Positions 9,185 to 32,303 of a DNA stretch of 54,776 nt are shown piece by piece. This stretch comes from a virus. Each line of letters opens with the position of its first letter. The stretch's first letter is position 1. The DNA lies in the IMG/VR virus record IMGVR_UViG_3300046514_000372, positions 1 through 54,776 of that record. One strand, written 5' to 3'. Both the position numbers and the translations under genes were made by a program. The notes under the pieces were generated by a model that saw only the letters and a program-made list of their open reading frames with translations, did not search any database and was not told the DNA's origin.

Positions 9185-9200
9185 AGCACGCGCTATGCCA
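9185..9200 (-). promoter_or_regulatory. Sigma-54-like promoter, leftward
   Basis: On the minus strand TGGCATA-GCGC-GTGCT, with GG and GC exactly 10 nt apart. Predicted start near 9174, 38 nt before the ATG at 9136, leaving room for the Shine-Dalgarno. It would drive the leftward arm. Confidence 0.5.
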
Positions 9201-9295
9201 AGCAAAACACGCGAAAACACTAGGGAAAACGCGCGACACTACCGCGCGCGTGCTCTAAACTGGCGCATCGTGTCCCAAATCTGTGGCACACAAGC

Positions 9296-9311
9296 CGGCA
9301 TGCACCTTGCA
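9296..9311 (+). promoter_or_regulatory. Sigma-54-like promoter, rightward (site 1)
   Basis: CGGCATG-CACC-TTGCA, GG-N10-GC. Predicted start near 9322, 3 nt before ATG 9325. The bases after it (GCAGACTA ... GACATGC) closely match those after the site at 16757. Confidence 0.45.
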
Positions 9312-9324
9312 GACTAACGATGAC

Positions 9325-9600
9325 ATGCGAAAACGTAATCGCGATGCGCGCGACGCTGCAAGCAAGGTTCATGCCAGACCAATCCAGTCGGACTTGGAAG
9401 GGCTGCGCAGAGCGCTGCGCCGTGCGCCCCTCAGCAAACACGATGCCATCTTCGCCGCGCATCGCGCCTACGAGGCTGCGACCTCGAATCAGGACATGCA
9501 ATCAGGACAGGCGTCACCGAATCAGGACGGCTGCGGACGCTGCGGCGGCGCCTACCCGTGCAATGGCGTGCTCTGGGGCACGCACCGCTTCGAGCGCTGA
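9325..9600 (+). CDS. Hypothetical basic protein with Cys-rich C-terminus, 91 aa
   Basis: First frame of the rightward arm. Starts MRKRNRDARDAASKV; a basic helical N-terminal half is followed by a low-complexity part with repeated Asn-Gln-Asp and a C-terminal CGRCGGAYPC knuckle. No Shine-Dalgarno is visible. The predicted sigma-54-like start would leave an almost leaderless message. An in-frame ATG at 9283 would lie upstream of that promoter. Moderately supported. Confidence 0.45.
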   Translation: MRKRNRDARDAASKVHARPIQSDLEGLRRALRRAPLSKHDAIFAAHRAYEAATSNQDMQSGQASPNQDGCGRCGGAYPCNGVLWGTHRFER

Positions 9601-9616
9601 TGGCACGCGCGTTGCA
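9601..9616 (+). promoter_or_regulatory. Sigma-54-like promoter, rightward (site 2), consensus match
   Basis: TGGCACG-CGCG-TTGCA, a full match to the -24/-12 consensus. Predicted start near 9627, 5 nt before ATG 9632, which would cut through the Shine-Dalgarno. Confidence 0.6.
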
Positions 9617-9631
9617 CAATCAGGAGGCACA

Positions 9632-9859
9632 ATGAGTGAACAAGTCACCGGCAAGGGCGGACGGAGCATCGCGCGGCGGAAGCTGACGATGTCTATGCTT
9701 GTGAACGCGGTGAAACGGGACGACGGCACGGGGTTCTGCGTTCACTGCCGCGCGACGCGCAAGGGCTGCGAGCCCGACGCCAAGAACTACCCGTGCGAGC
9801 GCTGCGGCGAGCCGGCGGTGATGGGCGCAGAAGAGATGCTGATGCGGGTGGCAGGCTAA
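9632..9859 (+). CDS. Small zinc-ribbon protein, 75 aa
   Basis: Starts MSEQVTGKGGRSIARRK. It contains CVHC and CERCG separated by about 18 residues including another Cys, typical of a zinc ribbon. Short proteins of this layout are common in phage early regions and usually bind nucleic acid or act as adaptors. A strong AGGAGG precedes the ATG. Specific role unknown. Confidence 0.7.
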   Translation: MSEQVTGKGGRSIARRKLTMSMLVNAVKRDDGTGFCVHCRATRKGCEPDAKNYPCERCGEPAVMGAEEMLMRVAG

Positions 9860-9864
9860 TTGCA
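9849..9864 (+). promoter_or_regulatory. Sigma-54-like promoter, rightward (site 3)
   Basis: TGGCAGG-CTAA-TTGCA spanning the stop of the 75-aa gene. Predicted start near 9875, three bases before the first stem of the three-way-junction fold at 9878-9930. Confidence 0.55.
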
Positions 9865-9877
9865 ATCAGGAAGCACA

Positions 9878-9930
9878 GCCGCCGAGTAGCCCGAAAGGGT
9901 GATGGGTTCGTATAAATCCGAACCGGCGGC
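9878..9930 (+). ncRNA. Candidate structured RNA (three-way junction) in a 5' leader
   Basis: P1 pairs GCCGCCG (9878-9884) with CGGCGGC (9924-9930). P2 is GCCC-GAAA-GGGT (9889-9900), a GNRA tetraloop hairpin. P3 pairs GTTCG (9906-9910) with CGAAC (9919-9923) around an 8-nt A/T-rich loop and abuts P1. AATCAGGA direct repeats flank the fold on both sides, and the right copy is the Shine-Dalgarno of the gene at 9947. It could be a cis-regulator or a stable small RNA. Pairing is seen; function is inferred. Confidence 0.5.
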
Positions 9931-9946
9931 ACAATCAGGAGAGCAC

Positions 9947-10300
9947 ATGGAAACCATACAGAAGCAGACGTTCAAGGCGGCGCTCGAAGACTTCATCGCT
10001 GAGGTCAACCGTGTTCGCAACAAGAATCAGGAGAGCTTCAGCCGCCTGGCGCAAGGCTCCTCGTTCATCGACTTCACCATCGGCCCGAAGTATACAAGGC
10101 TGATGTCGGGCGACGCCACGGGCGGGCGCAGCTACTACGGCTTCGTCCGTAATCAGGATGGCGCGGTGCTGTATGCCGGCGGGCCCAAGCCGTTCATCGG
10201 CAAGAGCGAGGCGACCACGGTGCGCGGCAACATCTTCGACAGCACCACGTGGGCGCGCTGCATCGGCCCCTACGGCGTGCTGACGCTGAGCCGGCGATGA
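9947..10300 (+). CDS. Hypothetical protein, 117 aa
   Basis: Starts METIQKQTFKAALEDF with a CAGGAGAG Shine-Dalgarno, so the in-frame ATG at 9899 is not used. Helical N-terminus, then a Gly/Tyr-rich beta-like domain (GGRSYYGFVRNQDGAVLYAGG) and a compact end (ARCIGPYGVLTL). Unrecognised. Its leader contains the structured RNA. Confidence 0.65.
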   Translation: METIQKQTFKAALEDFIAEVNRVRNKNQESFSRLAQGSSFIDFTIGPKYTRLMSGDATGGRSYYGFVRNQDGAVLYAGGPKPFIGKSEATTVRGNIFDSTTWARCIGPYGVLTLSRR

Positions 10301-10509
10301 GGCCCGCCTGGACGAAGCGCCGCTGTGCGCACAAGGACGACGACCCCAGCATGGGGCGCTACTTCCACGCCTGCTGGCAGCATGCGAGCAAGCTGGAGGA
10401 CGACACCTTCGACGTGCCCGACCACCAGCCGGCGGAGGGTTCGAGGGTCGAGGACATCGGCCACAACGAGCGCGACAGCGCGGGCGTGTGGTGCGGATTT
10501 TGCAACTAG
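10297..10509 (+). CDS. Small Cys/His-rich protein, 70 aa
   Basis: Starts MRPAWTKRRCAHKDDD, coupled by ATGA. Cys/His pairs (CAH, HACWQHA and CGFC near the C-terminus) suggest a metal-binding mini-domain. Unrecognised. Confidence 0.55.
   Translation: MRPAWTKRRCAHKDDDPSMGRYFHACWQHASKLEDDTFDVPDHQPAEGSRVEDIGHNERDSAGVWCGFCN
10489..10504 (+). promoter_or_regulatory. Sigma-54-like promoter, rightward (site 4, weaker)
   Basis: TGGTGCG-GATT-TTGCA, correct GG-N10-GC spacing but two departures in the -24 element. Predicted start near 10515, 3 nt before ATG 10518. Confidence 0.35.
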
Positions 10510-10517
10510 GAGCTGAT

Positions 10518-10736
10518 ATGGCAAAAGGCTGGCGTAAACAAGTCCTCGCAACCGGCAAACAACGGACGAGCGACGGGCACGACTACACGACGTTCGAGGA
10601 GTTCTGCGAAGCGCAGCGCGTCCGCGTCAGCATCGCACCGCTAAGCGACAGAGCGCTGTCCCTGATTCAGGACAACAACGACGACATGCTGCTGGCAGCG
10701 GTCTTGCACGAGACCACGGTCGAGGTGAGACGATGA
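10518..10736 (+). CDS. Hypothetical protein, 72 aa
   Basis: Starts MAKGWRKQVLATGKQR with an AGGAG Shine-Dalgarno. Basic N-terminus, then a helical acidic half (LSLIQDNNDDMLLAAVL). Its tail overlaps the next gene by ATGA. Unrecognised. Confidence 0.6.
   Translation: MAKGWRKQVLATGKQRTSDGHDYTTFEEFCEAQRVRVSIAPLSDRALSLIQDNNDDMLLAAVLHETTVEVRR
10693..10708 (+). promoter_or_regulatory. Sigma-54-like promoter inside a coding sequence (site 5)
   Basis: TGGCAGC-GGTC-TTGCA within the 72-aa gene. Predicted start near 10719, 14 nt before ATG 10733. Confidence 0.45.
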
Positions 10737-10939
10737 GACTCTTGACTGCGTTCATCCTGGCGTTCGCTATCGTGGTAACGGTGGCTGTCATCTCCACACT
10801 CGATAATAACGCCACGCTTAAAAGGCTGAATGAGGAGACGTTCGCTGTGGAGAAGGACGCACAGTGTGCCAAACGCGGCGCCAACTTTTTCGCCGTGAGC
10901 CTGCTTACCGGGCGCATCGGCTGCGTGGAGATACACTGA
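10733..10939 (+). CDS. Small membrane protein, 68 aa
   Basis: An N-terminal hydrophobic helix (LLTAFILAFAIVVTVAVI, residues 3-20) is followed by a 45-residue tail with two Cys. Either a signal anchor with an exported tail or a cleaved secretory peptide. ATGA overlap with the previous gene. No lipobox. Function unknown. Confidence 0.65.
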   Translation: MRLLTAFILAFAIVVTVAVISTLDNNATLKRLNEETFAVEKDAQCAKRGANFFAVSLLTGRIGCVEIH

Positions 10940-11118
10940 TGAAACAAGGCATGAAGCGCAAGCTCGCACCGAAAGACAAGCACGAGAAACCATCCTGGAA
11001 CAAGCGCCGGCTCGCTCGCGCCGACAAGCAGGCCGCGCACGCTGCGGCATCTGTAAGCGTAGTGAGCGACAGCGGAGCGAACGAAGCGGCCACAACGACA
11101 GGAGACAGCAATGAGTAG
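10939..11118 (+). CDS. Small basic protein, 59 aa
   Basis: Starts MKQGMKRKLAPKDKHEK. The first half is Lys/Arg-rich, the second Ser/Ala/Thr-rich. TGATG overlap with the previous gene. Probably unstructured, possibly nucleic-acid binding. Unrecognised. Confidence 0.5.
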   Translation: MKQGMKRKLAPKDKHEKPSWNKRRLARADKQAAHAAASVSVVSDSGANEAATTTGDSNE

Positions 11119-11281
11119 CAGCAGCAGCAACGCACGCGACGCAGCAAAGAAGGCGCTGCAGTGCGCCTTGGACGACCTGAAGAAGGACAACAGCGCCAGC
11201 AACGGCATCACCGTGGGCATTGGCGTGGCTATCGTCTCGGCGCTCCTCTACATCGGGGACGTCATCAAGGAGCGGTCGTGA
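11111..11281 (+). CDS. Small single-span membrane protein, 56 aa
   Basis: Starts with a Ser run then NARDAAKKALQCALDD, an amphipathic helix, followed by a glycine-rich hydrophobic segment (GITVGIGVAIVSALLY, about residues 32-48) and a charged end. The frame overlaps the stop of the previous gene. It ends GTGA into the next gene. Confidence 0.55.
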   Translation: MSSSSSNARDAAKKALQCALDDLKKDNSASNGITVGIGVAIVSALLYIGDVIKERS

Positions 11282-11475
11282 CACGCGACGAACGACGCAA
11301 GCTCCTGTTCGCGCCCATCACCGTGGGCATCCTGGCGACGGTGGGCGACCGCACGAGCGGTGGCATGGCGGGCGGCTGCAGCGGACCCTCGTCCGATGTC
11401 GCCAAGCTGCCCGTCTACAACATCCACACGGGCAGCGCAGCCGGCAAGCAGACGGCCACGGGGCCCAAGTCGTGA
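11278..11475 (+). CDS. Hypothetical protein, 65 aa
   Basis: GTG start (VTRDERRKLLFAP) overlapping the previous stop as GTGA, with AAGGAG upstream. Contains a short hydrophobic/Gly-rich stretch (APITVGILATVG) that may be a weak membrane segment, then a Gly/Ser/Thr-rich tail. Unrecognised. Confidence 0.5.
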   Translation: MTRDERRKLLFAPITVGILATVGDRTSGGMAGGCSGPSSDVAKLPVYNIHTGSAAGKQTATGPKS

Positions 11476-11642
11476 GCTGGCGCCCTACGGAGAACTGCCC
11501 CTGCTGGCGCTGCTGCGAAGCGCGAGCGCGCTGGACGGCGGGCTCCGCTGTCGCGATGTATGAGCGCCTCGATAGAGGCGCCCGCTGGAGTAGTCGGCGT
11601 GTGGTGCTGCGTGCGCTGCGAGCCCTGCTGAAAGGACGCTAA
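11472..11642 (+). CDS. Cys/Arg-rich mini-protein, 56 aa
   Basis: GTG start (VSWRPTENCPCWRCCEAR) with GTGA overlap. CPCWRCC near the N-terminus could bind metal; the C-terminus is an Arg/Leu helix. Unrecognised. Confidence 0.45.
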   Translation: MSWRPTENCPCWRCCEARARWTAGSAVAMYERLDRGARWSSRRVVLRALRALLKGR

Positions 11643-11643
11643 C

Positions 11644-12714
11644 GTGCCATCGCATCTCGCAGCCTTCGCGGTGAACGACCTGGTGGACGACATCGAGCAG
11701 GCTGAAGACTTCAGCTACAGCATCACGCTGTTTGCCGGCGACGGCACCGCGTATCAGCTGCGGCTAGCTGAGCCCTACTGGGTGAACGCGGCACTGTTCA
11801 GCAAGGCGCTGCTGGTGGATATGCGCACGAGGCGCACGACACTCAGCACCAAGGTGGATTTGCTGGACCTCGGTGCGCGCGAGCGACTGCTGCGCAACCT
11901 AGCGGTGTTCGAGGGCGAAGCCAGCTGGTCGAAGGACATCCACAGTTTGTTCGCGCGCGTCGCGCTGCACGTGGGCCAAGCGGAGGCCCCGGTGGTGCTG
12001 TCGAGCGTGGCGCCGCGCGAGGACGAGCGCTTCCTCGAAGTGGCGGGGTTTCCACTGCTCATCGAGGACCCCACGATTCTGTTCGCTGACGGAGGCGCCC
12101 GCAAATCGCTGCTGGCGCTCTACTGGGCCGCACAACTCAGCGCGACCGTGCCCACCCTCTACCTCGACTGGGAAATGCGCGGAGAGGACCACCAGGAGCG
12201 CTTGGCGTCGCTGTTCGGAGACCAGCCGTTCCCCGACCTCTACTACCTCAGCGCGCGGGCGCCGCTGCCCGTCATCGAGGATTCGCTGCGCGGCTACATT
12301 GACCAGCGCGGCATCGAGTTCCTTGTCATCGACAGCGCAGCGCCGGCAGCGGCGACCGAGGGGCCCGAGATACCCACCGAGTTCTTCGGGGCGCTGCGCC
12401 GGCTGAAGTGTGGGGCGCTGATACTCGCGCACATGAACCGGCTGAAGGACACCGAGAAGCCGTTCGGCAGCGCGTTCTGGCATAACTACGCGCGCAGCAG
12501 CTGGTATCTCGAAGCCCAAGAAGGCAACCGCCTGGAGCTGACCAACCGGAAGAACAGCTTCGGGCGACTGCTGTCGCTGGACCCCAAGGGTGTCCTCCAA
12601 TTGAGATACCGCGTGTTCCGAGAAGGGGACGCCACCGAGATAGTGCTCGACGGCAAGCGCACGTTTGTGGTGGAAACCAAGGTGGCACCGGACGTGCAGG
12701 AGGATGAGCCATGA
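11644..12714 (+). CDS. RepA-like RecA-fold ATPase (AAA_25 type), 356 aa
   Basis: Probable replication or recombination ATPase. The Walker A region reads FADGGARKSLLALYWA (about residues 147-162), with Arg where the canonical GKS/GKT motif has Gly. A first acidic strand is YLDWEMRGEDHQERL; Walker B is LVIDSAAP. LILAHMNRLKD and GSAFWHNYARSSW match the later motifs of hexameric RepA-like helicase ATPases often seen in phages. GTG start with AAAGGA upstream. The N-terminal 120 residues are unassigned. Confidence 0.7.
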   Translation: MPSHLAAFAVNDLVDDIEQAEDFSYSITLFAGDGTAYQLRLAEPYWVNAALFSKALLVDMRTRRTTLSTKVDLLDLGARERLLRNLAVFEGEASWSKDIHSLFARVALHVGQAEAPVVLSSVAPREDERFLEVAGFPLLIEDPTILFADGGARKSLLALYWAAQLSATVPTLYLDWEMRGEDHQERLASLFGDQPFPDLYYLSARAPLPVIEDSLRGYIDQRGIEFLVIDSAAPAAATEGPEIPTEFFGALRRLKCGALILAHMNRLKDTEKPFGSAFWHNYARSSWYLEAQEGNRLELTNRKNSFGRLLSLDPKGVLQLRYRVFREGDATEIVLDGKRTFVVETKVAPDVQEDEP

Positions 12715-12751
12715 GATATGAAGAGGGCCGACCGACAGGGAGGACCGACTA

Positions 12752-13048
12752 ATGGCACCGCGTGAAGTGTTCGACACCGAGATGCAAAAGCGGCTGCGCC
12801 AGGAAGCTATCGACATTGCGGCGGCTGCACGCAAGCGTGTGGCGGAGCGCAAAGAAGCTGAGCGGCTGTTCTGGGTGCGCATACTGAAAGAGAACATCGC
12901 AGCTATCCACGTGAACCCGGATGACCAGCGGCTGCGCATCACATTTGCGAGCGGTCGAGCGCTCTACATCGAGCCAACGGAATACGCCCACTACAGCAAC
13001 ACCGACGACTACCCGGAGTCGGCGCGCTGGGAGGATACAACCCGATGA
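12752..13048 (+). CDS. Hypothetical protein, 98 aa
   Basis: Starts MAPREVFDTEMQKRLRQEAID with a strong GGGAGGA Shine-Dalgarno. The first 45 residues are a charged helix, the rest a small alpha/beta domain (NPDDQRLRITFASGRALYIEP). Follows the RepA-like gene and overlaps the next by ATGA. Unrecognised. Confidence 0.6.
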   Translation: MAPREVFDTEMQKRLRQEAIDIAAAARKRVAERKEAERLFWVRILKENIAAIHVNPDDQRLRITFASGRALYIEPTEYAHYSNTDDYPESARWEDTTR

Positions 13049-13245
13049 ACGCGATTACGGCGACCGTGCGCGAGACAACCGAGACTCACGCAGCGGTGGT
13101 GGGCCCGCTGCCCGACATCACACGAGTGGAAGCGCTGCGACAGCTACTCGCAGCACACGAAGCCCCATATACAGTAGAGGACGTTAGCACTACGTGGTAT
13201 TCCGTAGTCGCTCGCGCCTTCCGGCGCGGCTCCCTGTCCCTCTAG
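13045..13245 (+). CDS. Hypothetical protein, 66 aa
   Basis: Starts MNAITATVRETTETHAAVV; C-terminal half is helical with aromatic residues (TVEDVSTTWYSVVARAF). ATGA coupled. A hairpin overlaps its stop. Unrecognised. Confidence 0.55.
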   Translation: MNAITATVRETTETHAAVVGPLPDITRVEALRQLLAAHEAPYTVEDVSTTWYSVVARAFRRGSLSL

Positions 13246-13265
13246 TGGTAACTACTAACCACTAG
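13242..13265 (+). terminator. Hairpin between gene block and HNH gene
   Basis: CTAGTGGT (13242-13249) pairs perfectly with ACCACTAG (13258-13265) around an 8-nt loop. No T-run follows. May be a weak terminator or mark the edge of the inserted HNH gene. Confidence 0.4.
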
Positions 13266-13315
13266 AATAAGGGGTAACCCTCAACGTCTACGCGATTATA
13301 TACAGCGGAGCGACC

Positions 13316-13618
13316 ATGTCAAACGATGGACGAGAATACCAACGAAACCGCCGAAGCGAGGCGCGCCAGCTTGTGGAAGCGGCCAAGCGTGAGAAGCCTT
13401 GCCCCGACTGTAAGAGGCGCTACCCTTCGTGGTGCATGGATTTCGACCATGTGGATGGGCGGAAAGTTTGCGCCATCAGCACGATGGTGACCCGTGGGCT
13501 TGCACTGGAGCGGCTTATCGAGGAGCTGGCAAAGTGTGAAGTGGTGTGCGCGAACTGCCACCGGACGCGAACGCACGAACGGCGGAAAGCAGCCGGAGCG
13601 AGAGTAGCAACCGATTGA
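13316..13618 (+). CDS. HNH endonuclease, 100 aa
   Basis: Site-specific or homing-type DNA nuclease. A zinc knuckle CPDCKRRYPSWCMDFDHVDG gives the first Cys pair and the HNH His; CEVVCANCHRTRTHERR gives the second Cys pair and final His. This spacing is typical of small phage HNH enzymes. GGAG precedes the ATG. It is the only gene of the arm with clear untranslated flanks (70 bases upstream, 30 downstream) and no stop/start overlap, as expected for a mobile insertion. Confidence 0.85.
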   Translation: MSNDGREYQRNRRSEARQLVEAAKREKPCPDCKRRYPSWCMDFDHVDGRKVCAISTMVTRGLALERLIEELAKCEVVCANCHRTRTHERRKAAGARVATD

Positions 13619-13648
13619 TATCTTGTAACCTTCTGGAGAATGCAAACG

Positions 13649-14071
13649 ATGGCTAAACTTGTGAAAGTCGTTCCGGCGAAAGACACCCGCTATCTGACGC
13701 GCCATCCCTGGTATCTCGCGGACGCACTGCTGACGATTCGACAGCTGCAAGCGCTCGTGTGGCCGATGGGCTACCACGTGGCCCTGGGCGGCGGCGTGCT
13801 GAACCACGGCTACAGCGACAAGGACCTCGACCTCTACGTGCTGCCGCTCGGCATCGAGCAAGCGGTCTCCCCGGACGATGCGTTGGCAGCGCTCTCGAAG
13901 CATTTCAAGTCTGTGCCCTTCGACTACGATGGGAGCGCTGAGACTGTGAAGGAGTTCGAGGCGTTGCACGGCGCCGGCAGCTGGGAGCGAAACACCTACT
14001 TCGCGCATTCGGTCTCTTACAAGCTCGTGGGGCTCAAGAGTATCGACGTGTTCATCGTGAGCCCCAAGTGA
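13649..14071 (+). CDS. Nucleotidyltransferase-fold protein, 140 aa
   Basis: The segment YHVALGGGVLNHGYSDKDLDLYVLPL (residues about 46-71, quoted in part) holds the GG...SDxDLD signature of the polymerase-beta nucleotidyltransferase fold, with two acidic metal ligands one residue apart. The rest (FDYDGSAETVKEF; YKLVGLKSIDVFIV) supplies a probable third acidic residue in IDVF. Substrate unknown; candidates include tRNA or protein nucleotidylation. ATG 13649 has better Shine-Dalgarno spacing than ATG 13640. Confidence 0.65.
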   Translation: MAKLVKVVPAKDTRYLTRHPWYLADALLTIRQLQALVWPMGYHVALGGGVLNHGYSDKDLDLYVLPLGIEQAVSPDDALAALSKHFKSVPFDYDGSAETVKEFEALHGAGSWERNTYFAHSVSYKLVGLKSIDVFIVSPK

Positions 14072-14160
14072 TGACGCGCCGGCCCGGTGCGGGCTTCGAC
14101 GTGTGGTTCCTGCTGGGCGCCCTGCTGGGCCTGGTGGCATGCTTTTTGCTCTGGTGGTAA
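14071..14160 (+). CDS. Membrane micro-protein, 29 aa
   Basis: Starts MTRRPGAGFDVW, then one hydrophobic span (FLLGALLGLVACFLLWW). TGATG overlap with the previous gene. No function known. Confidence 0.45.
   Translation: MTRRPGAGFDVWFLLGALLGLVACFLLWW
14135..14150 (+). promoter_or_regulatory. Sigma-54-like promoter inside a coding sequence (site 6), consensus match
   Basis: TGGCATG-CTTT-TTGCT. Predicted start near 14161, just after the stop of the micro-protein and immediately before the GGAGG of the gene at 14171. Confidence 0.5.
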
Positions 14161-14170
14161 TGGAGGACTG

Positions 14171-14272
14171 ATGGCAAAGCCTGTTGTGCAAACCCCGCGT
14201 GAACGGCTGATTCCCGGCAACGAGCGTGTTATCGCCCCGAGCGGTAAGACGACCTGGAAGGTGAAAGCGTGA
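14171..14272 (+). CDS. Small hypothetical protein, 33 aa
   Basis: Starts MAKPVVQTPRERLIPGN after TGGAGGACTG. Short, basic and polar; ends with GTGA overlap. Supported mainly by the Shine-Dalgarno and coupling. Confidence 0.45.
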   Translation: MAKPVVQTPRERLIPGNERVIAPSGKTTWKVKA

Positions 14273-14400
14273 ACGCCTTAACCGACACTCTCCTGTGGAT
14301 GCTGTTCGCGGCTGCGTTCGGCAGCTTTCTCATTGCCCTGTTCGTAGTGGGCTCCGTTGCGCTGCTGGTGTCTCTCGCCCGGCTCGGACGCCGGCAGTGA
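14269..14400 (+). CDS. Membrane micro-protein, 43 aa
   Basis: GTG start, VNALTDTLLWMLFAAAF, then a long hydrophobic segment (about residues 8-36) and a basic end (ARLGRRQ). One or two membrane passes. GTGA overlaps at both ends. Confidence 0.5.
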   Translation: MNALTDTLLWMLFAAAFGSFLIALFVVGSVALLVSLARLGRRQ

Positions 14401-14819
14401 AGCGCATTCTCTCGACCGAGGAACAGCAGCGCCTCGACGCGCACGCAGCGGACACCCTGGCGAACCCGCTGAGCGACGCTGAGGTCCAGGCCTGGCTGGC
14501 CTCCCTCAACAGCCTGGACGCCGCTGCCGGCAAGCCCGAGCAGCTGCGCGTGTGCGAGGAGCTACTGCGGCACGCGCCCGAAGACGACATGCTGGACAGC
14601 GACCAGCGCATCATCAAGCTGGCGATTGAACAACTGGCCGAGGAGCTGAAACGTGAACCGAGAACTTCGACACGCGTGGCGCGACGCACTGGGCTTTACG
14701 TGCGCGGTGTCCCTGATGGCGTGTGCGGCGAGCGTGACGACGAAGACGCCGACGACGACCGCAGTCCAGAGGACCCCTTTCTCGGTTACGACGAGCCAGA
14801 CGAGGGGAGCGGTGCCTAG
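14397..14819 (+). CDS. Acidic helical hypothetical protein, 140 aa
   Basis: GTG start, VKRILSTEEQQRLDAH. The first 85 residues are regular acidic helices; the C-terminal 55 are low-complexity with an Asp/Glu run. Its last 167 nt overlap the N-terminus of the lipoprotein frame at 14653 (+1 frame). Either the overlap is genuine or this protein ends functionally before it. Unrecognised. Confidence 0.5.
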   Translation: MKRILSTEEQQRLDAHAADTLANPLSDAEVQAWLASLNSLDAAAGKPEQLRVCEELLRHAPEDDMLDSDQRIIKLAIEQLAEELKREPRTSTRVARRTGLYVRGVPDGVCGERDDEDADDDRSPEDPFLGYDEPDEGSGA

Positions 14820-15036
14820 TGTCATCACGGCGCGCGGGCACTACGACCCTGCGACCACACGCGGCGCAGTCTGCTTTCTGGTTAGCGGACCGGAGGACCA
14901 CCGCAGCTGCTGGATTGAGGATGGGCTGGGGCCCGCGCTCCGAGTGGAACCGTTCTATCTGGGCACGCCAGGTGTCTATACTTTCGAGCTTGTCGGGGAG
15001 CGCCAGCGGGCGCGAACCGAAGTCGTCATCTACTGA
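14653..15036 (+). CDS. Predicted lipoprotein, 127 aa
   Basis: GTG start, then a basic stretch, a hydrophobic core (ALGFTCAVSLMAC) and a lipobox LMAC with Cys at residue 24. The mature part is a small beta domain (GAVCFLVSGPEDH; GVYTFELVGERQR) with two further Cys. The signal peptide lies entirely within the upstream gene in another frame. A later GTG at 14812 would give a signal-less form. If exported it would sit in the outer or inner membrane of a Gram-negative host. Confidence 0.55.
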   Translation: MNRELRHAWRDALGFTCAVSLMACAASVTTKTPTTTAVQRTPFSVTTSQTRGAVPSVITARGHYDPATTRGAVCFLVSGPEDHRSCWIEDGLGPALRVEPFYLGTPGVYTFELVGERQRARTEVVIY

Positions 15037-15045
15037 GGAGCACAC

Positions 15046-15192
15046 ATGAAGCTGGGTAAACTGTTGGGAATGCTGGTCTTACGGGTAGTCGTGTTGGCCC
15101 TGGTGCTGGGCCTGGGCTTCGCGGCAACCACCGTGGCAGCGTCCCTTTTCGTGGACAGGACACTGTCCACCGGGAGTGACAGTGGACGATAA
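15046..15192 (+). CDS. Membrane micro-protein, 48 aa
   Basis: ATG after TGAGGAG. MKLGKLLGMLVLRVVV begins one long hydrophobic segment to about residue 34, then a polar tail. Could be a signal anchor. The next gene begins inside its end. Confidence 0.5.
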   Translation: MKLGKLLGMLVLRVVVLALVLGLGFAATTVAASLFVDRTLSTGSDSGR

Positions 15193-15706
15193 CCAAGGGT
15201 TGAAGGAGCTGGTGGAGGCGAGCACCGGCTCCGCTGAAGTGGTCGAGCCCAAGCGGGAAGACCCCGAGGCGCCGGCCAAGCGGCGTATCGCGGAGGCCAT
15301 GCAGTCCCGCCAGCTCAGCGAGGCGCGTCCTCCAATGGGGACGGGTGTCCGCTACCAGCCACGACGTCAGGGGACAGTCTACGAGGTCTACGACGACGGG
15401 AGCATCCGCAAGCTGTGGCAGCGCGCCCCTGGCGTCTCTGGCCGGCAGTTCCGCAAAGCCCGCAAGGAAGCCCAGCGCGCAGCCGCTGAGGCCAACCGCA
15501 AGGCACTGGCGCCTATTCTGGCCCTCCTGCCGCCCATCGCCGGCCACCGGCACGCGATTGGTAACAACCTGCAGCCGTCCTGCGGCTGCGCCTACACCCC
15601 CGAAGCGCTGGGGGAGCTGCGGCGTCTTGTCCAGGCCCAAGTGGGCACCCAAGCTGGCACGCCGCTTGCAGAAGAGTCTGTGAACCCGGAAACCTCAGAG
15701 GAGTAG
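15176..15706 (+). CDS. Hypothetical protein, 176 aa
   Basis: GTG 15176 (or GTG 15182, which has better GGGAG spacing). Acidic N-terminus, central Arg/Tyr-rich segment (RYQPRRQGTVYEVYDDGS), a basic helix (FRKARKEAQRAAAEANRK), and a Cys pair (CGCAY). Unrecognised. A consensus sigma-54-like site lies within its 3' end. Confidence 0.55.
   Translation: MTVDDNQGLKELVEASTGSAEVVEPKREDPEAPAKRRIAEAMQSRQLSEARPPMGTGVRYQPRRQGTVYEVYDDGSIRKLWQRAPGVSGRQFRKARKEAQRAAAEANRKALAPILALLPPIAGHRHAIGNNLQPSCGCAYTPEALGELRRLVQAQVGTQAGTPLAEESVNPETSEE
15655..15670 (+). promoter_or_regulatory. Sigma-54-like promoter (site 7), consensus match
   Basis: TGGCACG-CCGC-TTGCA. Predicted start near 15681, giving a 31-nt leader with GAGGAG before ATG 15712: the most conventional arrangement of the set. 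Confidence 0.6.
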
Positions 15707-15711
15707 AACGA

Positions 15712-16608
15712 ATGCCTTCAACTCGTGTTGCGAACGCTGTCGGTGGCGGCGGAATCCTCCGTCGCAAGGACGGGACGGTCCTCGACCTCCAGTTCACCAC
15801 CAAGAACCCGCTCTTCAAGGGTGAAGAGCGCGCCGCGAAAATCGACCCGAAGACGGGTAAGCCCGTCTCGAAGCCGCTTTACGCGGTGTTCACCATCCTG
15901 GAGGACGGCAAGCAGCCGACGCTCCAGCCGATGCGCGTGGCCTACGAAGGCGACTTCGAAGTCGTCTGCGACGGTCGCGGCCTCAAGGGCACCAAGCAGT
16001 TCAACAAGAACTCGCAGTTCATGGTGTTCTACGCTTCGCTCGTGTCGCCCATCGACGGCGGCGCCGGCTTCAACGAGAACCTGTTGCCGGAAGACCCGGA
16101 ACAGCTCGTGGCCGACTACTCGAACCTGCGCGGCGCGCGTGTGCAGTTCGACTGGGTGAAGGACACCAGCAAGTGGGCGCTCGAAAACCCGCGCGTCCAG
16201 AAAGACAAGGAAGGCAAGGAAGTCGTGAAGGACGGGAAGAAAGTCACCCATCCCCGCGAAAACCTGGTCGTCGCTGTCTACTACGGCCAGCAGGACCTCT
16301 CGAAGGTCAGCGTGCCGGCGGTTGCTGGTGCGGCGACTGCGAAGACGGCGGCTGCGGCGGCGCCTGTCGCCATCGACGCTGCGGTCATCACGGCCACTGC
16401 GGAGGACAACGTCGTGTCGGTGCTGTCCGAAGCAAAGGACAAGACGCTGACCATCAAGCGCTTGAACGTCAAGCTCTTGTCGGCCCTGGCGGACGTGTCC
16501 GACGAGCTGCGCGAAGCCGTGCGGCTCTACTGCATGAGCGGGGAGAACCTCGCTGCCATCCCTGGCGTGTCCTTCGACAAGGCCACGCAGATGGTCAAGC
16601 TCGCCTAA
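15712..16608 (+). CDS. Hypothetical DNA-metabolism protein, 298 aa
   Basis: Starts MPSTRVANAV, the N-terminus shared with TerS and the helicase. Residues about 20-200 look like a beta-rich domain (LDLQFTTKNPLF; NSQFMVFYASL); a Lys-rich loop follows, then an Ala-rich linker and a C-terminal helical domain (LTIKRLNVKLLSALADVSDELREAV, quoted in part) resembling a winged helix. This arrangement recalls uncharacterised phage proteins encoded near Sak4-type recombinases, and a single-strand DNA binding role is possible. It has its own promoter-like site and a terminator hairpin, so it appears to be a separate unit. Confidence 0.65.
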   Translation: MPSTRVANAVGGGGILRRKDGTVLDLQFTTKNPLFKGEERAAKIDPKTGKPVSKPLYAVFTILEDGKQPTLQPMRVAYEGDFEVVCDGRGLKGTKQFNKNSQFMVFYASLVSPIDGGAGFNENLLPEDPEQLVADYSNLRGARVQFDWVKDTSKWALENPRVQKDKEGKEVVKDGKKVTHPRENLVVAVYYGQQDLSKVSVPAVAGAATAKTAAAAAPVAIDAAVITATAEDNVVSVLSEAKDKTLTIKRLNVKLLSALADVSDELREAVRLYCMSGENLAAIPGVSFDKATQMVKLA

Positions 16609-16618
16609 CTACCGGGTC

Positions 16619-16658
16619 AGCCCCTGGTGTGAGCGGGCGGACCGCTCTGCCAGGGGCT
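16619..16658 (+). terminator. Two-part hairpin terminator
   Basis: AGCCCCTGG (16619-16627) pairs with CCAGGGGCT (16650-16658); inside, GAGCGG (16631-16636) pairs with CCGCTC (16642-16647). TCGTTT follows. Strong stem between two genes; probable terminator. Confidence 0.7.
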
Positions 16659-16756
16659 TCGTTTATGCGGGGTCAGTTGTTCGGCTCGACGCTGTGGTAG
16701 CGCTGCAGAGCGCGCAGCCGGCTCGGAGAGTTCCCGAGGACCCTGCTCCATTTCGT

Positions 16757-16772
16757 TGGCACGCAGCGTGCA
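16757..16772 (+). promoter_or_regulatory. Sigma-54-like promoter (site 8)
   Basis: TGGCACG-CAGC-GTGCA in the gap after the terminator. Predicted start near 16783, 2 nt before the helicase ATG. No sigma-70-like alternative is obvious in this gap. Confidence 0.55.
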
Positions 16773-16784
16773 GACTACTAGGAC

Positions 16785-18302
16785 ATGCCATCAACCAGAC
16801 TGAACGCCGCCGTCGATAACACCCCGGTTGCCCCGAGCTTCGCGCCGAGCGAGGACCAGCAGAACATCTTCAACTGGTTCCGCGACGGCAAGCCGGGCGA
16901 CAACCTTGTCGTGCAGGCGCTGGCCGGCACTGGCAAGACCACAACCATCCTGAAGGCGATTGAGTTCGCCCCGGAGAAGGACATCCTCCTGGCGGCGTTC
17001 AACAAGCGCATCCAAACCGAGCTGAGCGACCGGCTGACGAACCCGAACGCGCAAGCCCTCACGCTGCACGCGCTCGGCTACCGCATGCTGCGCAACGCTA
17101 TCGGCTTCATCCCGACCAACAAGCGCTACGAGCGCGAGGAAGCCATCGGGCTGAAGTTCGCCGGCTCGCTCGGCTACGGCGCGTCACGCCTCATCGGCAA
17201 GATTGCCACCAAGGCGCGCGAAATCACCCCGTTCGACCACAGCATGGACACGCTGCTGGAGCTGGCCGAGGAGTTCGACCTCATCCCGACGCCGCGCGAC
17301 AGCTACACCCTGGCGCAGATTGTCAGCGCTGTGCAGCGTGCCCTCGACTGGGCGAAGAACCCCGAGTCGGCGCGGGCGACCGGCATCGACTTCGCGGATA
17401 TGATTTACCTGCCGCTCGTGAACGACATGGTGCAGGGCGTGTTCGACCTCGTGGTGGTGGACGAATACCAGGACATGCACAACTCGCAGCTCACGCTGGC
17501 ACTGCGCAGCTGCAAGCCCGGCGGGCGTATCGCGCTCGTGGGCGACACACACCAGGCCATCTACAGCTTCCGGGGCGTGAGCGCCGAGTCGCTGGCTATC
17601 ATGAAGGACTCGCTCTCGCCGCTGGAGCTGCCCCTTGCGAAAACCTACCGCTGCCCCAAGTCGGTCGTCGCTCTCGCTCGCCAGTTCGTCCCGCACTATC
17701 AGGTTGATGAAAGCGCGCCTGATGGTGTGGTCGATAGCGTCGAGACCCTTAACGATGTGGTATCCCGCGCCCAGGCCGGCGACTTCGTCCTCTCGCGCAA
17801 GAACGCGCCCCTCGCGAAAGCCGCGATGCGCTTCCTCGTGAACGACAAGCCGGCGCGCATCGTGGGCCGCGATATCGGCGCGACGCTGCGCAACTTGGTC
17901 AAAGTGCTGAGCGTGGGCGACGCTGCGCACAGCATCCCCGCGTTCCTCCGCAAGCTGCAGGCATACGAGGCGCAGCAAGTCGCGCGGCTCACCGCTGAGA
18001 AGCATTTCCACCGCATTGATGAGCTGGCCGACAAGTGCGACACGCTGCGCATCTTCGCGGAGAGCGCCAAAGGCGTGCCCGGCCTCATCGAGAAAATCGA
18101 CATGATGTTCGTGGACAACCCCGGCGCCTATGTCATCTGCAGCACGGTCCACAAGGCAAAGGGGCTCGAAGCGCAGAATGTCTTCCTGCTGAACACCACG
18201 TTCTTCATGCCGAAGGGCGAACCGCAGGAAGAGGCGAACATCTACTACGTGGCGGTTACCCGTGCGAAGGCGCATCTGACGATGTGCATGGAGAAGTTCT
18301 GA
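16785..18302 (+). CDS. UvrD/Rep-like SF1 DNA helicase, 505 aa
   Basis: ATP-dependent DNA helicase or translocase for phage replication or repair. Motif I AGTGKTT (47-53); motif II DEYQD (about 226-230); motif III GDTHQAIYSFRG; motif IV region KTYRCPKSV; motif V TVHKAKGLE (about 453-461); motif VI AVTRAKAHL. All SF1A motifs are present in order. At 505 aa it is shorter than cellular UvrD (about 720), so the accessory 1B/2B domains are reduced. The N-terminus MPSTRLNAAV matches two other phage proteins. It starts after a terminator and a sigma-54-like site. Confidence 0.92.
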   Translation: MPSTRLNAAVDNTPVAPSFAPSEDQQNIFNWFRDGKPGDNLVVQALAGTGKTTTILKAIEFAPEKDILLAAFNKRIQTELSDRLTNPNAQALTLHALGYRMLRNAIGFIPTNKRYEREEAIGLKFAGSLGYGASRLIGKIATKAREITPFDHSMDTLLELAEEFDLIPTPRDSYTLAQIVSAVQRALDWAKNPESARATGIDFADMIYLPLVNDMVQGVFDLVVVDEYQDMHNSQLTLALRSCKPGGRIALVGDTHQAIYSFRGVSAESLAIMKDSLSPLELPLAKTYRCPKSVVALARQFVPHYQVDESAPDGVVDSVETLNDVVSRAQAGDFVLSRKNAPLAKAAMRFLVNDKPARIVGRDIGATLRNLVKVLSVGDAAHSIPAFLRKLQAYEAQQVARLTAEKHFHRIDELADKCDTLRIFAESAKGVPGLIEKIDMMFVDNPGAYVICSTVHKAKGLEAQNVFLLNTTFFMPKGEPQEEANIYYVAVTRAKAHLTMCMEKF

Positions 18303-19690
18303 TGAGACTGAAGCAGTTGTTCGGAGGACTCGTATGCTCTTTGATGCTGACTGCGTGCGGCGTATCGCTGCCGCCAGCGCGTCCGCCTATCGTGACGCCG
18401 CCGCCGGTCGTCACTCCGCCGCCTACCGCCCCTACTTCGGTTGCCCTCGATTTGGTAGCCTGCAAGACGGTGCCGGCGGACAACTATTGCGACGGGATGC
18501 CCGGTGCGACCTTTGCCATCGAGACAGCACCGAACGTCTGGATGACGGTCAAGGGCGATGACAACGGCTACGTCTTCGTCCCGAACGCACCGAACGTCCC
18601 CGATTCGCGAATCACGATTGCCGCGCCCGGCTACATCACGCTAGGCCCGCAGCATATCAGCATCAACCACACGCCGCCCCAGGCGGACGACCTCGTGGCG
18701 GTGAACGCCGCCGGCAAGCACAACATGTGGTTGCTGACGCCGCTGGAGCCGCCGTTCCCGGCGCCCAAGTCGCGCGCCGACACCCTGAACCTGCACATCA
18801 CCGGGCAAGGCATGATGGTGAACACGCAGCAGTTCGGCACGCTGCCGTGGTGGGAAGCTGCGCTCACCTACTTGGGCCCGAGCGACCGAGCCGAAGTCTA
18901 CCGCATGAAGCACGCCTCGCAGGCGTGGCCCGGCGGCGACACGCACGCCATCATCGCGGTGCCCAGTGGCCGTGCGCTCTACGACGAACCGAACCAGCCC
19001 TACAGCGCGGACCGCTTCCCACCGCTCGACTGGACGAACGGCGCGACGTCGATGGTGCCCGAGTTCAACGAGCTGGTCATCGAGCTGATTACCAACGGCT
19101 TCACGCCGATGATTTTCCTCGATGAGACGATGGCGACGTCGAACGCGACGCTGCCGGTTGTCATCAACGCGCTGCAACACTCTCGGAAGGGTGACCTCAC
19201 GCCGTATGTCGTCATCGGCCCAGGCTGGGACGGTGTCTTCTACGGCTGGGAGCCCTCCCACGAAGTTATCCCTGCGTGGGCTGCGAAGGGCCGCTCGCTC
19301 TGCGCCAACTGCTATTTCTTCATTGAGCATAACGTCGGACATATCCCGGTGGGCGAGGGCCCGAGCGACTGGACGCCAGTCGGGCTCATGCGCGACTTCG
19401 ACATGCTGCTCTCGGAGTTCTTCGACGGGCAGTTCGATGACACCGTCTACCAGATTGCCGGGCGCACCATCCGTCCCTACTTCCGGCCGGCGGACCAAGT
19501 GGGCGACCCGAACCCGCCGATGTATATGACGGGCTCGAAGCTCCACCCCAACGAGGTGCAGCCGGCGTGCGCGTTCGAGTTCGCGATGTATGGGTTTGTC
19601 CACGGGAACGGACAGGGAACGTCCAATCCCGAGAACATTGTCCTCTGGAGGAACCGCCTGAAGGCCCTGGGGTATACCTGTGGCGGGTAG
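18302..19690 (+). CDS. Large predicted lipoprotein, 462 aa
   Basis: The signal MRLKQLFGGLVCSLMLTAC ends in a lipobox (LTAC, Cys at 19), followed by a Pro/Val-rich linker, a small beta domain (about 50-140) and a 300-residue alpha/beta domain. Segments such as GFTPMIFLDE, YVVIGPGWDGVFYGW, CYFFIEHNVGHIP and CAFEFAMYGF suggest a TIM-barrel, glycosidase-like fold, but I cannot name a family. ATG overlaps the helicase stop (TGATG). It is probably exported to the cell envelope during infection; superinfection exclusion or surface-glycan action are possibilities. Confidence 0.6.
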   Translation: MRLKQLFGGLVCSLMLTACGVSLPPARPPIVTPPPVVTPPPTAPTSVALDLVACKTVPADNYCDGMPGATFAIETAPNVWMTVKGDDNGYVFVPNAPNVPDSRITIAAPGYITLGPQHISINHTPPQADDLVAVNAAGKHNMWLLTPLEPPFPAPKSRADTLNLHITGQGMMVNTQQFGTLPWWEAALTYLGPSDRAEVYRMKHASQAWPGGDTHAIIAVPSGRALYDEPNQPYSADRFPPLDWTNGATSMVPEFNELVIELITNGFTPMIFLDETMATSNATLPVVINALQHSRKGDLTPYVVIGPGWDGVFYGWEPSHEVIPAWAAKGRSLCANCYFFIEHNVGHIPVGEGPSDWTPVGLMRDFDMLLSEFFDGQFDDTVYQIAGRTIRPYFRPADQVGDPNPPMYMTGSKLHPNEVQPACAFEFAMYGFVHGNGQGTSNPENIVLWRNRLKALGYTCGG

Positions 19691-19856
19691 GGCGAAGCGA
19701 CCCGGCCGGCGTCGTCCACTTGGGGGCGGCGTCTACCACTGTGCGCACTGCCACCGAGACTTCTGGCATGACTCCCGCAAGTGGTGGATTACGAGCTGGT
19801 GCTCGGATACGGCACAATACGTGCATCTCACTAGACTGAAGGAACCGAAACAATGA
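19680..19856 (+). CDS. Small Cys/His/Trp-rich protein, 58 aa
   Basis: GTG start within the end of the previous gene. An Arg-rich N-terminus is followed by VYHCAHCHRDFWHDSRKWW, a CxxCH zinc-finger-like segment, and one more Cys. Its TGA overlaps the next ATG (ATGA), giving exact coupling between two lipoprotein genes. Confidence 0.5.
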   Translation: MAGRAKRPGRRRPLGGGVYHCAHCHRDFWHDSRKWWITSWCSDTAQYVHLTRLKEPKQ

Positions 19857-25317: not shown

Positions 25318-25662
25318 ATGTTCAAGCTCGAAGAGCTGCCGTTGCGTCAAATCGTCGTGATGGGTGCAGGCACCGGTCCCGAGCGCTACGAGGCTCACTC
25401 GGTGCAGACAGTCGGCGGCTCTGCCGGCCCGCTGAGCATTCTGCGCTACGTGGGCGATTCGCTGTTCACCGTGAAGACGTTTGCCGTGGGCGCCTGGTCC
25501 TCGGTGCAGCTGAACATCCCGTCCCTCCAGGACATCGCGCTCATGGACACCATCTTTGCGGAGCAAGCCGCGAAGCAGAAGTCCCAGCAAGCCGAGGGTA
25601 GCGAGCCCGAGGGCGCGCAGTTTCTGCGTGCGTTGAAGTCGGCGTCGAAGCTGTCGAACTGA
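25318..25662 (+). CDS. Hypothetical protein, 114 aa
   Basis: Starts MFKLEELPLRQIVVMGAG, beta-rich for 70 residues, then a Gln/Glu/Ala helix. It ends on the first base of the polymerase ATG (TGATG). Unrecognised; location suggests a replication accessory. Confidence 0.6.
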   Translation: MFKLEELPLRQIVVMGAGTGPERYEAHSVQTVGGSAGPLSILRYVGDSLFTVKTFAVGAWSSVQLNIPSLQDIALMDTIFAEQAAKQKSQQAEGSEPEGAQFLRALKSASKLSN

Positions 25663-30025: not shown

Positions 30026-30215
30026 CGTGCCCGCGTGGGATTGCAAGACGCAGTGTTGGGACTGCGGGACGCGCCCTGGGCGTTATTCCGTTGTCAAGAC
30101 ATCGGACGGTAACCTCTGGTTCGTCTGTCAGCCATGCTGGAAACGCCACTGGCGCCGCTGGCTCTCACGGGGTATACCGGGCTCGACCGAGTGGACGGTA
30201 GCATTCGACACATAA
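30018..30215 (+). CDS. Small zinc-ribbon protein, 65 aa
   Basis: CKTQCWDCG and CQPCWKRHWRRW give paired Cys in a zinc-ribbon arrangement, then a Trp/Arg-rich end. Overlaps the previous gene by 8 nt. Function unknown. Confidence 0.6.
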   Translation: MNSVPAWDCKTQCWDCGTRPGRYSVVKTSDGNLWFVCQPCWKRHWRRWLSRGIPGSTEWTVAFDT

Positions 30216-30260
30216 CCCGCTGGGTGGTAAAATAGCAGGACCACCACCCTGGAGGATTCC

Positions 30261-31394
30261 TTGTCCATACCTGAACCGAAACATCGCCGCTACCAGACGA
30301 AGCGCTGCCCGACGTGTCCCAACATGATTGACCCGCGCTCGAACATCTGCGCGGCGTGCCGAGCCGGCCGCACGGTCACGGCTCCTGCCGGCCTGAACGC
30401 CGCTGAGCAGCTTGCCCTCGACCGGGCGAACGCCAGGAACGCCAGCGAGAAGCGAGGGCTCCAGGAGCGCTACAAAGCCGCACAGACCACCATCGAGCAG
30501 CTCGAAGGGGAGCTGCGAGTCGTCAAGGAGCTGAAGGATGGCTTGGACGTTCGCATCATCAAAGCCGGCGAAGCCTCGGGCGGTAACGAGGGCACTGTGG
30601 TTGTGGTCGCCTCTGATTGGCATTATGCCGGCCATGTGGGCGCCGAAGTGGGTGGGCTCAACCTCTTCAACCCCACAATCGCCCACACGCGCATCGAGCG
30701 GTTCTTCCAGAAAGCGCTCAGCCTCACCGAGCTACTCGCAGCGGGTCTGCCCATCAACCACATGGTGCTGGCTCTGCTGGGTGATTTCATCACGGGGCAT
30801 ATCCACGAAGAGTTCCAAGAGACGAACACCCTGCCCCCTATGTTCGAAGTTATCGCTGTTCAGAACGAGATTGTGAGCGGCATCCAGTTCCTGCTGGACA
30901 ACAGCGAGCTGCAGCTCACCATCCCGTGCCACAGCGGCAACCACGCGCGCACGACGAAGACCACGCGCTTCGGTGCGGAGAACGGCCACTCGCTCGAATA
31001 CCTGATGTTCCTGAACCTCAAGGACCACTTCCGGGACGAGCTGCGCGTGACGTTCATCGTGCCCGAGGCGCCGCACAGCTACCTCGACATCTACGGCACG
31101 ATGATTCGCTTCCAGCACGGCCACATGGTGAAGTATGGCGGCGGCGTCGGTGGGCTCACCATTCCGCTGAACAAGGCGATTGCGCAGTGGAACCAGGGCC
31201 GGCACGCTGACCTCGATGTGCTGGGCCACTTCCACCAGCTGTTCGACGGCGGGCGCTTCATCGTCAACGGCTCGCTCATCGGCTACGACTCGTTCGCGCT
31301 CAGCATCAAGGCGAGCTACGAGAAACCGAAGCAAGTGATGTTCCTGATGGACCGGAAACGCGGGCGCACGTTCACGTGCCCCATCTTCCTGTGA
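30261..31394 (+). CDS. Calcineurin-like metallophosphoesterase with N-terminal zinc ribbon, 377 aa
   Basis: N-terminal Cys pairs C16/C19 and C30/C33, a coiled-coil linker (about 50-95), then a phosphoesterase domain: SDWH (118-121), GDFITGH (174-180), GNHAR (226-230), GHMV (287-290) and GHFHQ (322-326). The first motif has SDWH where the family usually has DxH. Related to SbcD/Mre11-type or phage phosphoesterases; likely a DNA or nucleotide phosphodiesterase. TTG start with a good GGAGG. An inverted repeat GGGTGGT/ACCACCC lies just upstream. Confidence 0.85.
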   Translation: MSIPEPKHRRYQTKRCPTCPNMIDPRSNICAACRAGRTVTAPAGLNAAEQLALDRANARNASEKRGLQERYKAAQTTIEQLEGELRVVKELKDGLDVRIIKAGEASGGNEGTVVVVASDWHYAGHVGAEVGGLNLFNPTIAHTRIERFFQKALSLTELLAAGLPINHMVLALLGDFITGHIHEEFQETNTLPPMFEVIAVQNEIVSGIQFLLDNSELQLTIPCHSGNHARTTKTTRFGAENGHSLEYLMFLNLKDHFRDELRVTFIVPEAPHSYLDIYGTMIRFQHGHMVKYGGGVGGLTIPLNKAIAQWNQGRHADLDVLGHFHQLFDGGRFIVNGSLIGYDSFALSIKASYEKPKQVMFLMDRKRGRTFTCPIFL

Positions 31395-31416
31395 GTCACA
31401 CATGCGTGTTCGCGAT

Positions 31417-31440
31417 AACCGGCCCCTACGGGGGTCGGTT
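31417..31440 (+). terminator. Hairpin terminator with UACG tetraloop
   Basis: AACCGGCCCC (31417-31426) pairs with GGGGTCGGTT (31431-31440, one G-U) around TACG. It is 23 bases after the phosphoesterase stop and just before the next Shine-Dalgarno. No T-run. Confidence 0.65.
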
Positions 31441-31462
31441 CTGTGGACACTGCGGAGGACGC

Positions 31463-31786
31463 ATGCGAAAGCCGAGACCGAAGTATAAGCAGCTCTACCG
31501 GGAGATGCAGGCAGCGGAGTATAAGGCTCGGCATCGTGCCGAGCTTGCCGAGCGTCGCCTTAAGTTTGTGAATCAATCGCTCGTGAGCTTCGGCAGGCGC
31601 ACGCTGGAACAAATCAAGCCGCCAGAGGACCCCACACACACCATCGGGTTGCTGGCACACGAGTATGTGGCGGCGGAGGCGTTCCTCAGCTCCGTCGCGC
31701 GCTACGAGTCCGAGGACGCGCTGAATGGTTGGAACAACATCGCGTGGCGTGGCCGGCCCATCGGCTGGCTGGGAGAGATGGAATGA
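31463..31786 (+). CDS. Hypothetical helical protein, 107 aa
   Basis: ATG after GGAGG (MRKPRPKYKQLYREMQ). Basic coiled-coil N-terminus, then a helical domain ending in Trp/Gly (WRGRPIGWLGEME). An alternative GTG at 31391 would add a CxxC segment (FCGHCGG) but would translate through the terminator hairpin. Unrecognised. Confidence 0.6.
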   Translation: MRKPRPKYKQLYREMQAAEYKARHRAELAERRLKFVNQSLVSFGRRTLEQIKPPEDPTHTIGLLAHEYVAAEAFLSSVARYESEDALNGWNNIAWRGRPIGWLGEME

Positions 31787-32085
31787 ACCAGCTGGACCTC
31801 TACCAGGCGCGAGCGATGATGGAGCGCTCCTACCGCGAGTTCACCTACTACCGCAATGTTCCGAAGCGGCAGATGACGAACATCGTCGTCTACGCCGAGC
31901 GCGACATCTTCAAGGCGATAGTGGACTCTCTGGAGTGGCAGGAGACCATCACCAACAACGTGAGCCTGACGCCCACGACTCCCGGCGTGCCGAACTTCTA
32001 CTACAAGGACGCGCTGGTGTTTCGTGTAGAGCGCGACGGCTGGGCGCTGAAGTTCATGGCCCATATCGAGGAGACCTACCGTTGA
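31783..32085 (+). CDS. Hypothetical protein, 100 aa
   Basis: ATGA overlap. Starts MNQLDLYQARAMMERSYRE; helical first half, beta-like second half (FYYKDALVFRVERDGWALKF). Unrecognised. Confidence 0.6.
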   Translation: MNQLDLYQARAMMERSYREFTYYRNVPKRQMTNIVVYAERDIFKAIVDSLEWQETITNNVSLTPTTPGVPNFYYKDALVFRVERDGWALKFMAHIEETYR

Positions 32086-32303
32086 GCCGGCGCGCGGTGC
32101 TGCGCTGGCAGGACGGGCTCGACCAAATAATCGGGGTGTTCGACAAGGGTGAACCGGTCCACGACAGTGTGGTTATCGAAGGTAACCTCTTCCGCCTCTT
32201 CCAGTGCAGCGACCGCTACGCCCACTTCGAATACCAGGGGCCGGCGCCCATCCCCGAGAGCTGGCAGCAGTTCGTGGCACAGCCCTTGCAGGAGAAGCTG
32301 TAG
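32082..32303 (+). CDS. Hypothetical protein, 73 aa
   Basis: TTG start overlapping the previous stop (TTGA), GAGGAG upstream; GTG 32097 is an alternative. Small beta-rich protein (VLRWQDGLDQIIGVFDKG). A consensus sigma-54-like site overlaps its 3' end. Unrecognised. Confidence 0.5.
   Translation: MSRRAVLRWQDGLDQIIGVFDKGEPVHDSVVIEGNLFRLFQCSDRYAHFEYQGPAPIPESWQQFVAQPLQEKL
32275..32290 (+). promoter_or_regulatory. Sigma-54-like promoter (site 9), consensus match
   Basis: TGGCACA-GCCC-TTGCA inside the 73-aa gene. Predicted start near 32301, 3 nt before the SPFH gene ATG. Confidence 0.55.

Follow-up and report, generated by a model that had tools for sequence, protein, structure and literature searches.

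The rightward region of the window, by which we mean the whole 54.8-kb virus record IMGVR_UViG_3300046514_000372, contains a real, selected and directional two-box element of the -24/-12 type, YGGCAY-N5-KTGCA (that is, GG-N10-GC). This conclusion is drawn from direct observations, namely the enrichment of the element, its strand bias, its single fixed spacing, conservation confined to the two boxes, and sites that lie between unrelated genes. Its sequence and geometry appear to fit sigma-54 promoters better than anything else known to us, and we give a probability of roughly 0.5, marginally on the favourable side, to the reading that the sites are about nine or ten host-read sigma-54-type promoters at the gene starts of the replication module and at the divergent left start. 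The family of sigma-54-like promoters put forward in a preliminary description of this DNA is thus upheld as a real, directional set with fixed spacing that is retained in diverged phages, all of which -24/-12 promoters would lead one to expect; its use by sigma-54 itself carries the probability just given.

The rightward genes, a region that may be early, as the preliminary description has it, span about 9.3 to 34.5 kb of the window and encode, on the plus strand, a UvrD-like helicase (start 16785), a Sak4-like protein (22806), an ERCC4 nuclease (24438), a DNA polymerase (25662), an exonuclease (30261) and an SPFH protein (ATG 32304). Leftward genes comprise packaging genes at the left and virion genes at the right. 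An ORF at 32663–33844 joins deoxynucleotide monophosphate kinase and nucleoside 2-deoxyribosyltransferase domains, a fusion that hints at modified bases in the phage DNA. A tRNA search of the window found none; a search for the host found no phage record matching the window by DNA and, in genome contigs, only distant DNA polymerases (29–30% identity). Two relatives were used for comparison: a near relative (L017/L001), about 94% identical to the window in DNA over much of its own length, and a diverged relative (G001, 56.7 kb) with 63–81% protein identity. Between 9398 and 15257 the window and the near relative differ by many small gene insertions or replacements, and several of the breakpoints coincide with a -24/-12 element and its start codon.

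Matches were scored with a matrix spanning positions -26 to -11, written as an approximation to the general sigma-54 consensus. On the plus strand of 9185–34620, 11 matches exceeded 13 bits against 0.5 expected from dinucleotide shuffles and 15 exceeded 12 bits against 1.15 expected, and none of 60 shuffles reached either count; the enrichment over shuffled controls on which the preliminary description had staked its proposal was therefore found. The minus strand of the same region held three matches above 13 bits (0.57 expected), and the left and right arms of the window had one such match per strand each, with no significant excess. All ten listed 16-mers were located at their positions and strands, as were the six plus-strand copies with TGGCA-N6-TTGC (9601, 9849, 10693, 14135, 15655 and 32275), to which a seventh, missed earlier, is added at 25100; the accompanying chance figure of about 0.1 agrees with the base composition. 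The spacing is single-valued: TGGCA..TTGCA was found six times at N6, and the remaining gaps between 0 and 20 together yielded two cases. A matrix-free check, in which all 4-mer pairs at gaps of 1–18 were ranked in the window and in both relatives, placed GGCA-N7-TGCA first in the window and GGCA-N6-TTGC first in the diverged relative; in the near relative both were among the top four, the motif pair ranking second to GAAT-N1-AGGA, which comes from another local repeat. As in sigma-54 promoters, GG at -24 and GC at -12 lie 10 bp apart in a TGGCAC/TTGCW context. Position -20 is mostly G, matching the consensus, and all 18 sites have A or T at position -11, although they were picked with a matrix that favours A/T there. 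The excess over chance and the conservation of the boxes in relatives support the assignment to this promoter class and do not define it.

With the expected start placed 12 nt after the GC, as predicted from sigma-54 geometry, six plus-strand sites (9296, 9601, 10489, 12683, 16757 and 32275) have 12–15 nt between the 16-mer and the ATG, which falls at +3 to +6. The earlier statement that most sites lie just before a start codon holds for these six, and less so for 10693, 14135, 15655 and 9849. Site B (9296..9311, +; CGGCATGCACCTTGCA) precedes the first rightward gene (ATG 9325, at +4), is kept in both relatives and is without a clear Shine-Dalgarno sequence. Site C (9601..9616, +; TGGCACGCGCGTTGCA) has its ATG at 9632 (+6). 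Site E (10489..10504, +; TGGTGCGGATTTTGCA; ATG 10518, at +4) is kept ahead of three different genes in the window and the two relatives. Site F (12683..12698, +; TGGCACCGGACGTGCA; ATG 12712, at +4) is identical in the near relative and has CGGCACGCGCGTTGCA as its partner in the diverged one; it was absent from the preliminary list and should belong in it. Site M (32275..32290, +; TGGCACAGCCCTTGCA) stands before the SPFH-protein ATG at 32304 (+4), its diverged partner being CGGCATGCCGATTGCA.

Site I (16757..16772, +; TGGCACGCAGCGTGCA; partner in the diverged relative TGGCACGCCGAGTGCA) follows a terminator-like hairpin at 16619..16664 (+; CCCCTGG..CCAGGGG with a T-rich tail), which lies between the ORF at 15712–16608 and the helicase gene; the hairpin was read by eye, folds, and is the same in the near relative. 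The helicase ATG at 16785 falls at +3, with little or no Shine-Dalgarno sequence. The window and the near relative share the terminator, then carry unrelated DNA, and exact identity resumes at the TTGG of the -24 box and continues into the helicase gene. A scan of 6400–20000 for the sigma-70 consensus TTGACA-N16-18-TATAAT gave none at the sites in their direction, so that the helicase gene, directly after a terminator, is without such a match in the scan, and the position of site I is where a promoter is needed.

The other sites are less regular in their distance to a gene. Site A (9185..9200, -; TGGCATAGCGCGTGCT; diverged partner TGGCACGCCGCGTGCT) is divergent and leftward with an expected +1 at about 9174, and it alone has a sigma-70-like feature, overlapping a conserved TATTGT that resembles a -10 box. 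Site D (9849..9864, +; TGGCAGGCTAATTGCA) has its next ATG at 9947; its partner in the diverged relative has an ATG at +6, and the site is lost in the near relative. Site G (14135..14150, +; TGGCATGCTTTTTGCT; ATG about 14171, at about +11) is kept in the near relative although the DNA upstream is unrelated, and is missing at the moved gene in the diverged relative. Site H (15655..15670, +; TGGCACGCCGCTTGCA) lies inside the end of the upstream gene, with the ATG at 15712 (+32) and a Shine-Dalgarno sequence after the expected start; both relatives keep it, and the codon changes in the near relative leave the boxes intact. Its position within a gene is no objection to a promoter, since in Salmonella the majority of sigma-54 sites fall inside genes and some of these work as promoters (PMC3844500).

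Four further matches, at 10693, 22736, 25100 and 28225, are all inside coding sequence. The first (10693..10708, +; TGGCAGCGGTCTTGCA; ATG 10733, at +15) was listed in the preliminary description and is identical in the near relative, yet the coding sequence there is identical too; its membership, like that of 22736, is doubtful, so that the earlier list stands for most sites, with this one questioned and 12683 omitted. The matches at 25100 and 28225 are explained by codons of conserved peptides. These two, together with TGCAGGAG-like joins at sites F and M, are what could be expected if the family were due to chance or were a by-product of ribosome-site and codon composition. For the family as a whole we find that account hardly credible, given the strict spacing, the matrix-free rank, the box-only conservation and the lack of a ribosome site at B and I; the comparison with both relatives already contradicts it. 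Ribosome-site composition as the cause was rejected on the fixed spacing and on the little or no Shine-Dalgarno sequence at B and I.

Both the near relative and the matching part of the diverged relative have the same strand-specific motif excess as the window. Nine pairs (A, B, C, D, E, F, H, I and M) were compared between the window and the diverged relative; the -24 box is 89% identical and the -12 box 98%, whereas identity falls to 44% in the spacer, 45% upstream of the element, 53% between the box and +5, and 35% beyond that. The box values are inflated, because the same matrix served to find the partners in the diverged relative, as it first did for most of those in the near relative. 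Nearly all of the diverged partners nevertheless sit at the corresponding gene boundary, and chance would give such a match only about once in 20 kb. Site C is the most telling case for selection: the element, the Shine-Dalgarno sequence and the ATG are all kept in the diverged relative amid unrelated genes, with TGGCAC-N5-TTGCACAATCAGGAGGCACAATG common to the two phages and both the DNA before it and the gene after it unrelated. The element and its start codon would seem to form a module that stays put while flanking genes are swapped.

Thirteen loci from phages and genomes that are related distantly or not at all showed no such motif excess. When all viral contigs were scanned for the cassette at site C, the known relatives came up together with two matches judged to be chance, and nothing else. 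Distant relatives (L027–L042) have the exonuclease in common and not the motif family, which appears to be limited to the phage group of the window. A single GGTACCGACTGGCATCNGCGTTGCA occurs in two of them, at L027:9949 and L038:9949, about 50 bp before the exonuclease gene, which leaves room for a normal leader and ribosome site.

Stoperators in some mycobacteriophages stop transcription from dispersed sites, and the asymmetric element, present in the same orientation at short gene junctions and many times per module, might similarly be an operator or roadblock on which a repressor or an inactive sigma-54 holoenzyme stops transcription through the module. We regard this as distinctly improbable: no repressor gene was identified, the element is not palindromic, and the recurrence in the left and right arms that stoperators should show is missing.

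The near-leaderless geometry at the six regular sites is a peculiarity that the preliminary description missed. Many partners in the relatives have the start codon at the same offset as in the window, and at many sites the predicted start is only 2–5 nt ahead of the start codon, beyond any Shine-Dalgarno sequence present. With the ATG at +3 to +6, the mRNAs from the six sites would be nearly leaderless. At B and I the Shine-Dalgarno sequence is weak or missing (in the diverged relative, ATCGCACGGCCCATG and ATAGCTATATCCACAATG), which suits leaderless initiation; at C, E, F and M it is present and placed before or at the expected start, so that read-through messages alone could make use of it. 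For ordinary sigma-54 promoters such a geometry is odd, and to our knowledge leaderless sigma-54 transcripts are not a usual arrangement. Our literature search found no report combining leaderless mRNA with sigma-54 promoters. Some bacteria with sigma-54 are known to make leaderless mRNAs, e.g., Sinorhizobium meliloti (PMC3616915).

The near-constant start geometry keeps two other explanations alive. One is that the element acts in RNA, a UGGCA-N6-UUGCA just upstream of the ribosome site that is bound by a protein of the phage or the host and governs translation of the downstream gene. The fixed 12–15 nt to the ATG at many sites, the shared strand of element and genes and its retention before unrelated genes all suit such a signal, as do the start-associated sequences with a presumed translational role in cluster K mycobacteriophages. 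The latter are likewise short, oriented repeats that precede many start codons and persist next to differing genes; they differ in being a contiguous 13-mer, GGGATAGGAGCCC, that is usually 3–9 bp from the start and overlaps the ribosome site (PMC3203893, PMC11373665), whereas the element in the window has two boxes, lies upstream of the ribosome site and shows no such 13-bp sequence at that distance. Sites A, H, D and G are 20–80 nt from starts, site A faces the opposite way, the element recurs right after a terminator, where a promoter is needed, and by inspection the boxes could pair merely in a weak three-base stem; we therefore consider an RNA-level signal improbable.

The other explanation is that a phage-encoded protein redirects host RNA polymerase to a two-box element that merely resembles -24/-12. 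Many phages use promoter motifs of their own. Besides the nearly constant start codon offset, this possibility draws on small HTH and zinc-ribbon-like ORFs of unassigned role, on the record of phage YuA, in which a 28-bp repeat is entered as a promoter that requires a phage cofactor, and on the search for activator sites, which found no shared enhancer-like site within 260 bp upstream of the sites. Set against it, the two boxes, the distance between them and the preference at -11 all match a known host factor. No phage protein emerged as a candidate: searches for sigma-54 were negative, and that for a single-subunit RNA polymerase had no positive control. We judge a phage-specific factor unlikely, if the most serious of the competing accounts.

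On the sigma-54 reading, sigma-54 would bind the GG/GC pair. It counts against this reading that neither the window nor the diverged relative has a recognisable gene for sigma-54 or for an enhancer-binding activator (PF00158), and that no common upstream site was found; the activator would therefore have to be the host's. Such a host-supplied ATPase, for example a phage-shock, nitrogen or envelope-stress ATPase, would allow transcription to start about 12 nt downstream. At the six sites the message would begin 2–5 nt before the start codon and be translated as near-leaderless mRNA, and the Shine-Dalgarno sequence at some starts would serve read-through transcripts from upstream promoters. That the replication module is run in this way, from distributed host sigma-54 promoters that give near-leaderless messages and are active only with a host activator, is a tentative proposal with the odds somewhat against it. 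Bacterial sigma-54 (RpoN) promoters share with the set the GG-N10-GC spacing, the TGGCAC and TTGCA boxes, A/T at -11 and commonly intragenic sites (PMC3844500); unlike them, the set is on a phage, is repeated along one module, has ATGs at +3 to +6 and is without a detected upstream enhancer. If true, gene expression in this phage group would be tied to host stress or nutrition through the activator; the link to nutritional state made in the preliminary description is speculation.

The usual view is that phages depend on sigma-70-type factors or on polymerases or factors of their own. Our literature search brought up no paper describing a set of sigma-54 promoters in a phage, and the YuA genome paper did not surface either. 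The YuA record (NC_010116), which the preliminary description had invoked as a precedent, does contain three phage promoters assigned to the sigma-54 type, annotated as '-24/-12 consensus', and notes their high reporter activity. Under our approximate matrix the best matches in the three stretches reach no more than 7.4, -0.7 and 3.4 bits, the same matrix detects no enrichment in the YuA and PaMx25 genomes, and the YuA promoters lie in the virion-gene region, whereas the present set runs along the rightward replication module. YuA is a weak precedent and the present set a much stronger sequence case; a conserved set of -24/-12 promoters across a replication module would be the best such case known to us for a phage using sigma-54. 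The set would also allow leaderless translation from sigma-54 promoters to be tested and, even if read by another factor, is a clearly defined, unexplained regulatory signal.

Several other sequence features lie near these sites. Two strong leftward matches, at 9361–9376 (-; 18.0 bits) and 9433–9448 (-; 16.5 bits), are within the first rightward gene, which counts against their belonging to the set; that at 9361–9376 is identical in the near relative, and leftward matches close by in the diverged relative are weaker. Upstream of site B, GTGTCCYAWWTYTGTGGMACAC at 9265–9290 is a near inverted repeat kept in all three phages, and could be an operator. The octamer AATCAGGA has eight copies on one strand within 0.7 kb (9487–10158), in coding sequence and ribosome sites, and none elsewhere in the window; the near relative has nine, and a comparable cluster in the diverged relative shares the 13- and 20-bp spacings. 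A perfect TTGACA-N16-TATAAT at 13295–13322 (-) is opposite to the direction of transcription, at the edge of an ORF (13316–13618) that is HNH-like by eye and without a Pfam hit; since this ORF is missing from the near relative, the sigma-70-like element spans an apparent insertion junction.
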